Below are positions 24,266 through 56,845 of a stretch of DNA of 64,000 nt, piece after piece. How positions within the stretch are numbered: position 1 is the first letter of the stretch; each line of letters begins with the position of its first letter. Source of the stretch: Pisciglobus halotolerans (lineage in GTDB: Bacteria > Bacillota > Bacilli > Lactobacillales > Carnobacteriaceae); the NCBI RefSeq assembly GCF_900113675.1, contig NZ_FOQE01000005.1, positions 1 to 64,000 on the forward strand, written 5' to 3'. A program made the position numbers and the translations under genes. Under the pieces are notes generated by a model. It saw only the letters and a list, made by a program, of their open reading frames with translations, had not been told where the DNA came from and did no database searches.

Positions 24266-24287
24266 AATAACGAATCAAACAATGGCG

Positions 24288-24483
24288 ATGAAAGAAGGAG
24301 TAGGTACTTTAGTTGCTGTCTAGCGAGTTTGGGATAGTGAAAGCCAAATGCAGAACGGGTATCGAAGGCGTCTGGAGCTCAATTTAATAAAAGATGCTGG
24401 TCAAATGTGATCAGAATTAGGGTGGAACCGCGGTAATTTATCGTCCCTATGCTGGCTTTTTAGTCTGCATAGGGGCTTTTTTT
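24288..24483 (+). ncRNA. Glycine T-box riboswitch
   Basis: A T-box leader for glyQS. The conserved antiterminator sequence AGGGTGGAACCGCG is at 24419-24432. The terminator pairs CGTCCCTATGC with GCATAGGGG and ends in eight T (about 24442-24483). The upstream part is stem I; a GGC at 24367-24369 is the likely glycine specifier, and stem II seems short, as in other glyQS leaders. Uncharged tRNA-Gly binding should stabilise the antiterminator and turn on glyQS. Confidence 0.93.
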
Positions 24484-53106: not shown

Positions 53107-53790
53107 ATGGATTGGGATTACGATGGAGAAAGAGGACCTGAACACTGGAAACAGTTGTGTCCTGCATTTTTTGAGGCAGAAGAAGGTTCTTTGCAGTCTC
53201 CTATTATGCTAAGTGAAAAGACAGCAACTAAAGCGGACCAGCAAAAAAAGGCACGATTTTTTTATGAGACTACACGTTTTTCAACTTCTTTTTATAATCA
53301 TACGGTTCACTTGGCACCATTAGAAAAAGAGAAACAAAATAAGATTTTATTTGATGATACACCTTTCTTTTTAGATGATATTCATGTGCATTTACCGAGT
53401 GAACATCAAATTGATGAACATACCTTTGCAATGGAGATTCATTTCGTTCATCGCTCAGCGCAGCAAGAGATTCTAGTAGTAGCTGTTATGGCAGAAAAAT
53501 CAATGCAGGAGAAATCAAATCAGACTTTTTCTCTTGATCACATCAAAGACCAAACGCAGTGTACATTGGTTTTACCTGATTGGACGCCTCAAAGTAGTTC
53601 CTTTTTTTATTATAGCGGCTCATTAACGACACCGCCCACCAAGGGACCCGTTAACTGGTTGGTTTTTAAAGAGCCTATTTCTTTAGATGCATCCTTGTTA
53701 AACGACATGCAACAACAGCTTGGCAAAACCAATCGCCCTTTGCAGCCGATTCAAGATCGCTCGGTGCATCTTTACTCGGACACTGAATAA
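53107..53790 (+). CDS. Alpha-class carbonic anhydrase
   Basis: A 227-residue alpha-type carbonic anhydrase starting MDWDYDGERGPEHWKQLCPA. Zinc ligands lie in DIHVHLPSEH and MEIHFVH, and the substrate-pocket block is SLTTPPTKGPVNW. It interconverts CO2 and bicarbonate. Most bacterial alpha enzymes are exported; this one has no signal peptide from the ATG at 53107, which has AAAAGGAG seven bases upstream. An upstream extension from 53065 adds no signal either. It is monocistronic. Confidence 0.9.
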   Translation: MDWDYDGERGPEHWKQLCPAFFEAEEGSLQSPIMLSEKTATKADQQKKARFFYETTRFSTSFYNHTVHLAPLEKEKQNKILFDDTPFFLDDIHVHLPSEHQIDEHTFAMEIHFVHRSAQQEILVVAVMAEKSMQEKSNQTFSLDHIKDQTQCTLVLPDWTPQSSSFFYYSGSLTTPPTKGPVNWLVFKEPISLDASLLNDMQQQLGKTNRPLQPIQDRSVHLYSDTE

Positions 53791-53795
53791 AAAGC

Positions 53796-53824
53796 TTGAC
53801 AGATATTTATGCAACAGGTATGAT
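53796..53824 (+). promoter_or_regulatory. Promoter of the Trp-type ABC transporter operon
   Basis: Consensus TTGACA (53796-53801) and TATGAT (53819-53824) with 17-bp spacing. Transcription would start near 53831, about 320 bp before the first transporter gene, leaving a long regulated leader. Confidence 0.88.
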
Positions 53825-53861
53825 AAAAATCAATATTTGACGTAAGAAGGAGCGAAGACAC

Positions 53862-53936
53862 ATGATACAACTTTTCTATTCCATTCAAGTAAAAATGAAT
53901 CATCGTTGGCAAAGCCGACATAGAAGGGTTGTTTGA
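53862..53936 (+). CDS. 24-residue leader peptide with one Trp codon
   Basis: The frame reads MIQLFYSIQVKM then NHRWQSRHRRVV and stop. AGAAGGAG lies nine bases before the ATG. The single Trp codon is at 53907-53909, just upstream of the first regulatory stem, and the stop codon overlaps it. Ribosome position, at Trp or at stop, would decide which hairpins form. The peptide is also rich in Arg and His, so another sensing residue is possible. Confidence 0.72.
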   Translation: MIQLFYSIQVKMNHRWQSRHRRVV

Positions 53937-54067
53937 TGAGTCCAGCTCATAGAAACGACCCTCAGTGTGTTTACTGAGAACGTTTCTATGTTGGCTTTAT
54001 TATCCTATAAACATGTTGCAGCCGCATAGAATAAAAGGGGACATCCCTTGTTCTGTGCGGCTTTTTT
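53914..54067 (+). promoter_or_regulatory. Transcription attenuator of the Trp-type transporter operon
   Basis: Five mutually exclusive segments are visible. AGGGTTGTTT (53925-53934) pairs with AAACGACCCT (53953-53962), with ATGAG/CTCAT inside. CATAGAAACG (53948-53957) pairs with CGTTTCTATG (53981-53990). TTCTATGTTGGC (53984-53995) can pair with GCCGCATAGAA (54021-54031) as antiterminator, or with GCCGACATAGAA (53914-53925). GCCGCATAGAA pairs with TTCTGTGCGGC (54051-54061) followed by T6 as terminator. No T-box core motif is present. Confidence 0.8.
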
Positions 54068-54150
54068 GTATTCCAAAAAAAAAGTCGCTGGTGTTGATCA
54101 GGCGGCTCTTTTTATTTTCATAACGCATTTACATAAGGGAGGAGAAAATA

Positions 54151-55140
54151 ATGAAAAAGATGTATGGTTTCATTGCCCTGTTAACAGTCTTGTTGATCAT
54201 TGCATTTGTTTCTGCAAAAAAAGAAACAAATGAAGAAAGAAACCATGATGTACCTGTCATCGGCATATTGCAGATCACCAGTCATCCTGCTTTGGACGCC
54301 ATTCATAAAGGCATCATAGATGGGCTGAGCGAGGAAGGGTATCAGAATGGAGAGACGATCAAAGTTGAAGATCAGAATCCACAAGGGGATCAAAGCAATT
54401 TGAATACGATGAGTCAGCGTCTTGTCAGCAAAGATGTCGATATTCTAGCAGCCATTGCTACACCATCAGCTCAAGCTTTAGCAAATGCAACGGAGGATAT
54501 TCCTATCATTTTGGCAGGCGTTACAGATCCTGAAAGCTCAAATCTAGTGAAGTCCAATAAGGAACCTGGGGGAAATATCACAGGAGTAGCGGATCAGCTG
54601 CCAATAAAAGAACAAATTTCACTAATGAAAGAACTGATGCCCGCTGCAAAAAATATCGGCATTCTATATTCATCGAGTGAAGACAATTCCATCATAAACG
54701 CAAAAGAAGCTGAAAAAATCGCGGAACAGTCAGGGTTTAAAGTCAAAACAATGACGGTGTCTTCTACAAACGATGTTGCACAGGCTGGATCAGCTCTTGC
54801 TGATCAAGTAGATGCGATTTGGGTACCATCAGACAATACGATTGCCAGTGCATTGAATACGTTATTGCAAGTAACGGACGAGAAGGGAATACCTGTTTTT
54901 CCGCCTGTTGATACCATGGTCAAGCAAGGTGGTCTTGCAACAGTAGGGGTCAACCAATATGAAATGGGTAAGCAAGCTGGAAAGATGGCAGCTGCCATTC
55001 TTGATGGAGAAGAAATTCCAGCAAATACACCTATTCAATCACCGATACACACAAACATTTATATGAATCAGCAAAAAGCAAAACAGCTGGGTATCCATAT
55101 ACCCAGTGAGCTAAAAGAACAAGCTGTACTTTTTCATTAA
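54151..55140 (+). CDS. trpX: ABC transporter substrate-binding protein, tryptophan type
   Basis: A 329-residue protein with an N-terminal hydrophobic anchor (about 5-21, MYGFIALLTVLLIIAFVSA) but no lipobox cysteine. The rest is a periplasmic-binding fold: GILQITSHPALDAIHKGI, AIATPSAQALA, GVADQLPIKEQI, LYSSSEDNSI and VGVNQYEMGKQAGKMAA. It resembles the streptococcal TrpX family. The permease and ATPase follow immediately. The Trp codon in the upstream leader independently supports tryptophan as substrate. The ATG follows GGGAGGAG. Confidence 0.85.
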   Translation: MKKMYGFIALLTVLLIIAFVSAKKETNEERNHDVPVIGILQITSHPALDAIHKGIIDGLSEEGYQNGETIKVEDQNPQGDQSNLNTMSQRLVSKDVDILAAIATPSAQALANATEDIPIILAGVTDPESSNLVKSNKEPGGNITGVADQLPIKEQISLMKELMPAAKNIGILYSSSEDNSIINAKEAEKIAEQSGFKVKTMTVSSTNDVAQAGSALADQVDAIWVPSDNTIASALNTLLQVTDEKGIPVFPPVDTMVKQGGLATVGVNQYEMGKQAGKMAAAILDGEEIPANTPIQSPIHTNIYMNQQKAKQLGIHIPSELKEQAVLFH

Positions 55141-55157: not shown

Positions 55158-56054
55158 ATGGATTTGATTGTAACGGCTACCTCGCAAGGTTTTTTATGGG
55201 GGATCATGGCTTTAGGAATCTTTATGACGTATCGTATTTTGAACTTACCAGATATGACAGCTGAAGGTGCTTTTCCATTAGGGGGAGCTGTGGCTGCTCA
55301 GCTGATTTTACATGGGGTTTCCCCCGTCTTGGCGACAGCTATCAGTTTTGTTATAGGGATGTTAGCAGGTGCAATAACCGCATGGCTGATCACTAAAGGA
55401 AACGTTCCAGACTTGCTGGCAGGTATATTGACCATGACAGGACTCTATTCAATCAATCTTCGCATCTTGACAAGGGCAAACCTTAGTCTATTAGGAGAAG
55501 AGAGGCTGACTGATTTTCTCAGTGGTCTTCATCTTCCCAGCTCATTTGATACTTTGTTTACAGGGTTCATGATTTGCACGGTACTTATTTTTCTGCTAGT
55601 CTCATTTTTTAAAACTGAGATTGGACAAGCCGTTATTGCTACAGGAGATAATGAAAGAATGGCGCGATCAATGGGGATCTCCACAAGCAGAATGAAAGCA
55701 GTAGGACTAATGCTTTCCAATGGTTTAGTAGCAATGGCTGGGGCTATGATTGCCCAAGATAATGGCTATGCTGATATCAGTATGGGGATCGGTACAATTG
55801 TGATCGGTCTGGCAGCAGTGATTATCGGTGAAGTAGTTTTTGGAAACTTAAGTTTTACTCATCGTCTGATCTGTGTCATTTTAGGCGCGATCATTTATCG
55901 CTTGATTATTTTATTTGTCCTTCTCATTGGATTGGAGCCAAATGATTTAAAATTGATTTCAGCCGTTATTTTAGCTTTTTGTTTAGCTTTACCATCTTTG
56001 CGCAAATCAATGCACCTCCATTTTTTTGACAGAAAGGAGCAAAATGAGCGATGA
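55158..56054 (+). CDS. trpY: ABC transporter permease, tryptophan type
   Basis: A 298-residue membrane protein with about eight helices. Family motifs are LPDMTAEGAFPLGGAVAA and GNVPDLLAGILTMTGLYSIN near the N-terminus and GDNERMARSMGISTSRMK in the cytoplasmic loop. It forms the channel with the next gene's ATPase. AAAGGAGG precedes the ATG. It overlaps the ATPase gene by 4 bp. Confidence 0.88.
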   Translation: MDLIVTATSQGFLWGIMALGIFMTYRILNLPDMTAEGAFPLGGAVAAQLILHGVSPVLATAISFVIGMLAGAITAWLITKGNVPDLLAGILTMTGLYSINLRILTRANLSLLGEERLTDFLSGLHLPSSFDTLFTGFMICTVLIFLLVSFFKTEIGQAVIATGDNERMARSMGISTSRMKAVGLMLSNGLVAMAGAMIAQDNGYADISMGIGTIVIGLAAVIIGEVVFGNLSFTHRLICVILGAIIYRLIILFVLLIGLEPNDLKLISAVILAFCLALPSLRKSMHLHFFDRKEQNER

Positions 56055-56845
56055 GTGTAAATACGATTTTAGATATCCAAGGGTTATCGAAAACTTATCA
56101 ACAGAAAACATTAAATGAACATCAAGTATTAAAAGAACTATCTTTTCAAGTAAACAAAGGAGACTTCATTACTGTCATTGGCGGTAATGGTTCGGGAAAG
56201 TCATCTTTATTGAACGCAATAGCCGGCAGCAGCATACCCGATAAAGGCAAAATCCTACTTTCTGGAAAAGACATCACGCGCTTAAAAGAAGAACAGCGAG
56301 CAGATCAAATTGGAAGAGTCTTTCAGGATCCCTTAATGGGCACAGCGCCAAGAATGACCGTAGCAGAAAATTTGGCTATTGCATTTCGCAGAGGAAAGAA
56401 AAGGAGATTTAGACGAGGCATAACAGCGAATGAAAAGGAACTTTATATGGATTTATTGGCGAAGCTGGGGTTAGGTCTTGAGAGACGCTTAGATTCAGAA
56501 ATGGGTTTACTGTCGGGCGGCCAAAGACAAGCTATCACCTTACTAATGGCGACAATGAAAAAGCCTGCTATTCTTTTATTGGATGAACATACAGCTGCTC
56601 TAGATCCCAAAACTGCTCAAACGATCTTAAGTTTGACAAGCCAGCGTATCAAAGAGGAAAAACTGACCGCCTTAATGATCACTCACAATATGCAAGATGC
56701 TTTGACATACGGCAATCGATTATTGATGTTGGACAGCGGAAAAATAGTAATGGATCTCTCTCAGGAGGAAAAAGAAAGCTTGACCGCTGAATCGTTGATT
56801 CTTTTGTTTCAACAACATTCTTTAGGTTTTGATCTTTCATCTTAA
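56051..56845 (+). CDS. trpZ: ABC transporter ATP-binding protein, tryptophan type
   Basis: A 264-residue ABC ATPase with Walker A GGNGSGKSSL (about 43-52), Q-loop FQDPLMG, signature LLSGGQRQA and Walker B ILLLDEHTAALD (the usual DEP is DEH). It powers import by the preceding binding protein and permease. It starts inside the end of trpY (ATGA overlap). Confidence 0.92.
   Translation: MSVNTILDIQGLSKTYQQKTLNEHQVLKELSFQVNKGDFITVIGGNGSGKSSLLNAIAGSSIPDKGKILLSGKDITRLKEEQRADQIGRVFQDPLMGTAPRMTVAENLAIAFRRGKKRRFRRGITANEKELYMDLLAKLGLGLERRLDSEMGLLSGGQRQAITLLMATMKKPAILLLDEHTAALDPKTAQTILSLTSQRIKEEKLTALMITHNMQDALTYGNRLLMLDSGKIVMDLSQEEKESLTAESLILLFQQHSLGFDLSS

Follow-up and report, generated by a model that had tools for sequence, protein, structure and literature searches.

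How does Pisciglobus halotolerans control trpXYZ, the tryptophan ATP-binding cassette (ABC) transporter operon whose leader lies at positions 53,796 to 54,150 of the 64,000-nucleotide stretch analysed here (contig NZ_FOQE01000005.1, positions 1 to 64,000; hereafter, the window)? A sequence-only reading of this leader had proposed that the logic of trp attenuation is applied to a transporter, and the comparative evidence supported this proposal. The operon is very probably governed by a ribosome-mediated transcription attenuator that acts through the supply of charged tRNA-Trp. The open reading frame (ORF), codon conservation, alternative pairings, covariation and match between codon and target gene reported below were all computed.

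The trpXYZ leader and its alternative structures

The promoter, the ribosome site, the 24-codon ORF with its single Trp codon, the alternative stems and the terminator described in the sequence-only reading were all found in their places, as seen in Table 1, and the predicted Trp-type transporter was confirmed by the TrpX equivalog match. With the ribosome stalled at the Trp codon, folding of the leader gave the helices 53926-53941:53945-53961 and 53984-54003:54013-54031. The first of these agrees with the stalled hairpin proposed earlier at 53925-53962, and the second is a longer form of the proposed pairing of 53984-53995 with 54021-54031. With the ribosome at the stop codon, exactly the anticipated helix, 53948-53957:53981-53990, was obtained, and the terminator placed at 54021-54067 was found as the D:E helix followed by TTTTTT. 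Two features go beyond the earlier reading. One is a pairing between segments A1 and C (-26.6 kcal/mol in the window), and the other is that the leader matches an existing Rfam family, RF04312.

Table 1. Features of the trpXYZ leader and operon in the window.
Feature	Positions	Strand	Evidence
Sigma-70 type promoter, TTGACA-17-TATGAT	53796-53824	+	11/12 matches
Shine-Dalgarno AAGGAG of leader ORF	53847-53852	+	Read from sequence
Leader ORF, MIQLFYSIQVKMNHRWQSRHRRVV then stop, 24 codons (ATG 53862, TGA 53934-53936)	53862-53936	+	Conserved in relatives
Single Trp codon (UGG, codon 16), proposed sensing codon	53907-53909	+	Sequence; codon scan
Segment A1, leader codons after Trp; partner of C if ribosome-free	53910-53926	+	Duplex energy, family covariation
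Segment A2; partner of B with ribosome stalled at Trp	53926-53941	+	Folding
Segment B; Rfam P1 5' arm is 53948-53957	53945-53962	+	Rfam alignment, folding
Segment C; P1 3' arm with the conserved GGCUUUAUUAU shoulder; can pair with A1, B or D	53981-54003	+	Rfam alignment, folding, duplex energy
Segment D; antiterminator with C (54013-54031), terminator with E (54020-54033)	54013-54033	+	Folding
Intrinsic terminator D:E (54020-54033:54049-54062) and U tract TTTTTT	54020-54068	+	-27.7 kcal/mol
Rfam RF04312 trpB motif match	53946-54072	+	66.3 bits, cut-off 59, full length
trpX, tryptophan ABC transporter substrate-binding protein	54151-55140	+	NCBIfam NF041285 equivalog, 436 bits, cut-off 390; PF04392
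trpY-type permease	55158-56054	+	PF02653
trpZ-type ATPase	56051-56845	+	PF00005

The window holds a leader ORF with a ribosome site and a cognate codon, and an antiterminator and terminator that exclude each other according to ribosome position in silico. We infer the response to Trp-tRNA and its kinetic outcome to be as follows. When Trp-tRNA is scarce, the ribosome would stall with codon 16 (UGG) in the A site and cover A1. A2 would then pair with B, and C, left unpaired, would take up D before E has been synthesised; the terminator would thus fail to form and trpXYZ would be transcribed. With ample tryptophan, a ribosome at the UGA would take segment A out, B:C (the P1 hairpin) and D:E would form, and transcription would stop at about 54068. 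Across the family, C in an untranslated leader is predicted to be mostly kept from D, making termination the default; the untranslated state of the window leader itself is uncertain.

Conservation of the Trp leader and of its pairings

RF04312, the trpB motif, is an orphan that was described as a "strong riboswitch candidate" with over 900 representatives, and its describers did not rule out classic attenuation (PMC11109978). The Rfam model starts at the 5' arm of P1, after the leader ORF, and omits the ORF, A1 and A2; therefore, the ORF is invisible to it. In the window, the match ends 78 nucleotides before the start of trpX and so lies in the 5' untranslated region of an amino-acid ABC transporter.

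RF04312 was found in 162 of 298 Lactobacillales genomes compared to 5 of 399 genomes drawn phylum-wide. Four weak matches (L055, L056, L087 and L106), which lack a matching leader ORF and are apparent false positives, were dropped together with one cut contig, and 113 motif loci were kept. A leader was called when an ORF preceded by a Shine-Dalgarno sequence ended no more than 35 nucleotides before P1 and had Trp among its last 12 codons. Such an ORF was present at 106 of the 113 loci, compared to control rates of 1.7% in dinucleotide-shuffled upstream regions and 2.4% in shifted windows. With Phe/Tyr leaders counted, the figure rose to 110 of 113. Two of the remaining three loci have Trp or Phe/Tyr leaders by eye, and the third, L054, has a Phe-containing leader. 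The sequence-only reading had named the loss of leader ORF or stems in relatives as grounds for giving it up; this comparison was run and both were found to be conserved. Trp leaders stand before trpX or trpB.

Among 92 distinct Trp leaders, Gln follows the Trp in 80 and a second Trp lies three codons later in 58, while 33 have one Trp codon only. The conserved end is WQ(S/N), often with a terminal R(R). The N-terminal half varies, as does the distance from Trp to stop, which ranges from 2 to 10 codons.

For the A1:C pairing, the mean native duplex energy was -15.9 kcal/mol for Trp leaders and -17.3 kcal/mol for Phe/Tyr leaders, compared to -11.1 and -8.4 kcal/mol for the respective cross-class swaps and -7.5 kcal/mol for shuffles. 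Seven A1:C pairs showed changes on both sides within the Trp class, and nine did so over both classes, a covariation of A1 with the shoulder on the 3' side of P1. Shuffling the partner column weakened the pairing at several variable pairs.

The effect of ribosome position was modelled by folding each transcript from just beyond the ribosome edge, with D made but E not. Pairing with D was read from the core of C, as a broader measure counted a helix common to both states. For 92 Trp leaders, the median C:D probability was 0.02 when free, 0.80 with the A site on Trp and 0.03 at the stop codon. The corresponding values for 32 Phe/Tyr leaders were 0.05, 0.96 and 0.02; a further 22 Phe/Tyr leaders without a clean D:E call had been excluded. 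The plateau of the mean profile covered codons 0 to +3, the site of the two Trp codons or of YFSYF. These results were stable for ribosome edges of +10, +12 and +14, with a weaker effect for Trp leaders at +10 (0.63). Shuffling segment A reduced the mean in the stalled state from 0.70 to 0.12. In the window leader, C:D reached 0.95 at Trp and fell to 0.01-0.07 at the stop codon, where B:C took over. A codon scan of the window peaked at codons 15-19, around the Trp at 16, though it used the broader measure, which is unreliable at the stop.

At L031, a strong RF04312 match of 86.6 bits (1501-1613) is followed by a group II intron-type reverse transcriptase gene, identified from its sequence only, and not by trpX. 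At L054/L245, in a distant genome, a Phe-containing leader ending in QIFFNNHFR and the same stems stand before a sodium-dependent transporter (NF037979).

A sister class with Phe/Tyr codons

Some copies carry Phe/Tyr codons in place of Trp, typically ending in QLNNYYFSYFR before the stop. A pattern scan of the named genomes gave at least 80 such loci, and the rest of the element was confirmed for at least 66 occurrences. Among the matches listed, they come mostly from Enterococcus, Tetragenococcus, Vagococcus and relatives. Downstream are aroE-DAHP synthase-aroB-aroC, aroC-tyrA-aroA-aroK, DAHP synthase-pheA-tyrA, or a paralogue of the TrpXYZ transporter; aroC, aroA, tyrA, pheA and aroK are named here from their sequence only. 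Specificity would thus reside in the leader codons and not in an RNA pocket, and the Phe/Tyr version would control aro, pheA/tyrA and tyrosine-type transporter operons. At L123, L154 and L187, it is a chorismate-synthase-like gene, and not aroE, that comes directly after the leader; the element thus moves from one aromatic gene to another.

Phe/Tyr leaders offer E a further partner, F, which is the 5' arm of another hairpin with a U tail, F:G. The E:F energy was -11.2 compared to -4.4 when shuffled (z -3.6), while the Trp-class control gave z -0.7. The modelled E:F probability differed modestly, from 0.72 in the stalled state to 0.45 at the stop codon. In most Phe/Tyr leaders (L118, L131 and others), this second relay comes after the first hairpin, together with a second U-tailed terminator; several transporter leaders of this class lack a U tract on the first hairpin. 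The "on" state probably runs through A2:B, C:D and E:F, and the "off" state through B:C, D:E and F:G.

Both classes have counterparts in the literature. According to PMC4448216, RNA-seq of Streptococcus agalactiae revealed one element before gbs1262 and another before gbs2033; each has a short terminated form, and the two were proposed as new aromatic amino-acid riboswitches. A relative of the gbs1262 element precedes trpB of Fusobacterium nucleatum, and the gbs2033 type is also found before the aroFBC-tyrA operon of Enterococcus faecium (same source). The gbs1262 element corresponds to the Trp class, and the gbs2033-type element and Enterococcus sRNA 2410 (RF02863) correspond to the Phe/Tyr class. 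The second relay could explain the lengths of the two S. agalactiae elements, 270 and 195 nucleotides. When six Phe/Tyr loci were tested against RF02863, L118 (84.2 bits) and L177 (61.3 bits) passed the cut-off of 61; L131, L164, L142 and L301 gave no match, nor did the window.

RF04312 and RF02863 are likely to be two specificity classes of one large Lactobacillales family of leader-peptide attenuators. The classes would be related by codon exchange with compensating A1:C changes, termination would be the default without translation, and in the Phe/Tyr class the E:F relay would extend the element to a second terminator. Over 248 Lactobacillales genomes and 399 phylum-wide genomes, a mixed covariance model (R1), together with the reading of 40 further loci, gave only Trp or Phe/Tyr leaders and no third amino-acid class. 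The weak phylum-wide R1 matches that were read had no matching leader ORF.

Variants of the Phe/Tyr leader were also seen. At L282, L291 and L287, Phe-only (SFFFGFFR) and mostly-Tyr leaders (FHYYYGYYR, AYYYGYFG) precede paralogous binding proteins and may mark finer specificity. In Faecalimicrobium dakarense (L132) and Romboutsia lituseburensis (L177), leaders ending in FYFSYFS and YYFSYFS stand before a different transporter, a candidate BrnQ-like one.

Weighing the attenuator against other explanations

The match between leader codon and transporter substrate was examined through the binding proteins. Homologous structures bind Trp (SP1069), Phe (VC_1101) and Tyr (CD0873), and Gln-284 of SP1069 admits the indole, while the same position is Tyr in VC_1101 and CD0873 (PMC6816091). 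The solved structure closest to the window TrpX is 3lft, SP1069 with Trp bound. Binding proteins behind Trp leaders cluster with SP1069 and those behind Phe/Tyr leaders with CD0873. The specificity position is Gln in 98 of 98 of the former and Tyr in 40 of 40 of the latter, which supports the attenuator, but this association consists of two clades and, therefore, the 138 counts are not independent events. This lack of independence weighs against the attenuator, as do three further points. The window leader has a single Trp codon. Its untranslated form, from the likely start site, gave a C:D value of about 0.6 and was not clearly terminated, since its start region (53857-53879) is predicted to form 20 base pairs with 53920-53942; this pairing may hide the leader's own ribosome site. 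Finally, the modelling treats a truncated transcript at folding equilibrium and assumes a ribosome edge at +10 to +14. On the other side, the trpB and aro associations are separate support for the match of codon to gene, and the RNA-seq data showed premature termination at both S. agalactiae elements (PMC4448216).

One alternative is a riboswitch, in which tryptophan or another aromatic ligand would bind to the P1 hairpin region itself and so act on the terminator, with no translation required. This has been proposed in print for both the trpB motif and the gbs elements (PMC11109978 and PMC4448216), and the Rfam consensus has conserved unpaired nucleotides beside P1. However, A1:C pairing accounts for these nucleotides, the loop and length of P1 are highly variable, an ORF with aromatic codons occupies a fixed place in nearly all members, and the codon class, in step with A1:C, tracks the target gene. 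We therefore regard a riboswitch as very unlikely. A TnaC-like arrest peptide, in which the nascent leader would respond to free tryptophan and halt the ribosome at one defined position close to the stop, was named as a rival in the sequence-only reading. The lone Trp codon of the window leader and the conserved WQ(S/N) with its frequent terminal arginines would suit it, but the C-terminal codons are explained by A1:C pairing. The variable distance from Trp to stop does not provide a fixed sensing distance, the N-terminal half is not conserved, 58 of the 92 leaders have a second Trp codon, and Trp is swapped for Tyr/Phe runs on the same scaffold in the sister class. Arrest at high tryptophan would also turn an uptake operon on when tryptophan is plentiful, which is the wrong direction. 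This explanation is disfavoured and is about as improbable as the riboswitch. Least probable is a constitutive terminator or small RNA whose short transcript is the product, as Enterococcus sRNA 2410 was catalogued. RF02863 does match Phe/Tyr leaders, and a Northern blot shows two bands (PMC5593968), but the tandem hairpins of this class could explain two bands, and the element consistently precedes aromatic amino-acid genes and has alternative pairings. A T-box was rejected as the regulator of this leader, as the sequence-only reading had held, since the T-box covariance model gave no match in 53780-54200 even at E = 1.

Attenuation itself is a known kind of regulation. The trp, pheA and his attenuators of Proteobacteria share with the present family the cognate codons in a leader peptide, an antiterminator that overlaps the terminator, and coupled translation; the present family differs in its fewer Trp codons, the extra A1:C pairing, and the second relay and terminator of the Phe/Tyr class, and no sequence relation is claimed. 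Leader-peptide attenuation outside Proteobacteria is also found for His in Firmicutes, with His codon runs, other genes and other lineages (PMC2965389, PMC9413887). The trpB motif is the same RNA as ours, with the P1 hairpin and terminator before an amino-acid ABC transporter or trpB. RF02863 and the gbs elements share premature termination but were described as a small RNA or as aromatic riboswitches. The orthologous trpXYZ of Streptococcus suis is also controlled by tRNA-Trp charging, but there the tRNA binds a Trp T-box directly (PMC9382623). The earlier claim that relatives use a Trp T-box thus held for S. suis; most Lactobacillales genomes searched, however, carry at least one element of the attenuator family. 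No report of a leader peptide for these elements was found in the freely searchable literature, and none is mentioned in the passages of PMC11109978 or PMC4448216 consulted. Recognition of the leader ORF and of the A1:C helix, the union of the two Rfam families and the setting of specificity by leader codons, therefore, appear new.

If this reading is correct, one orphan strong riboswitch candidate and one small RNA family would be removed and replaced by a single mechanism. Aromatic leader-peptide attenuation would be a widespread control of Trp uptake and shikimate genes in Lactobacillales, whereas such control in Gram-positive bacteria is usually attributed to T-boxes and TRAP. The codon-swapped pair would be a natural experiment on specificity change in attenuators, and annotation would gain in practice, since the leader codons would tell which substrate the transporter downstream takes up.

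The tryptophan synthase beta gene, trpB, was not found above the cut-off in the host genome; therefore, Trp uptake is probably essential for this organism. No Phe/Tyr copy was found there by exact pattern, and R1 detected only one element. Elsewhere in the window, a T-box match was seen at 24279-24451 (87.8 bits, below the cut-off of 93), and the host genome has 17 T-box matches in total.
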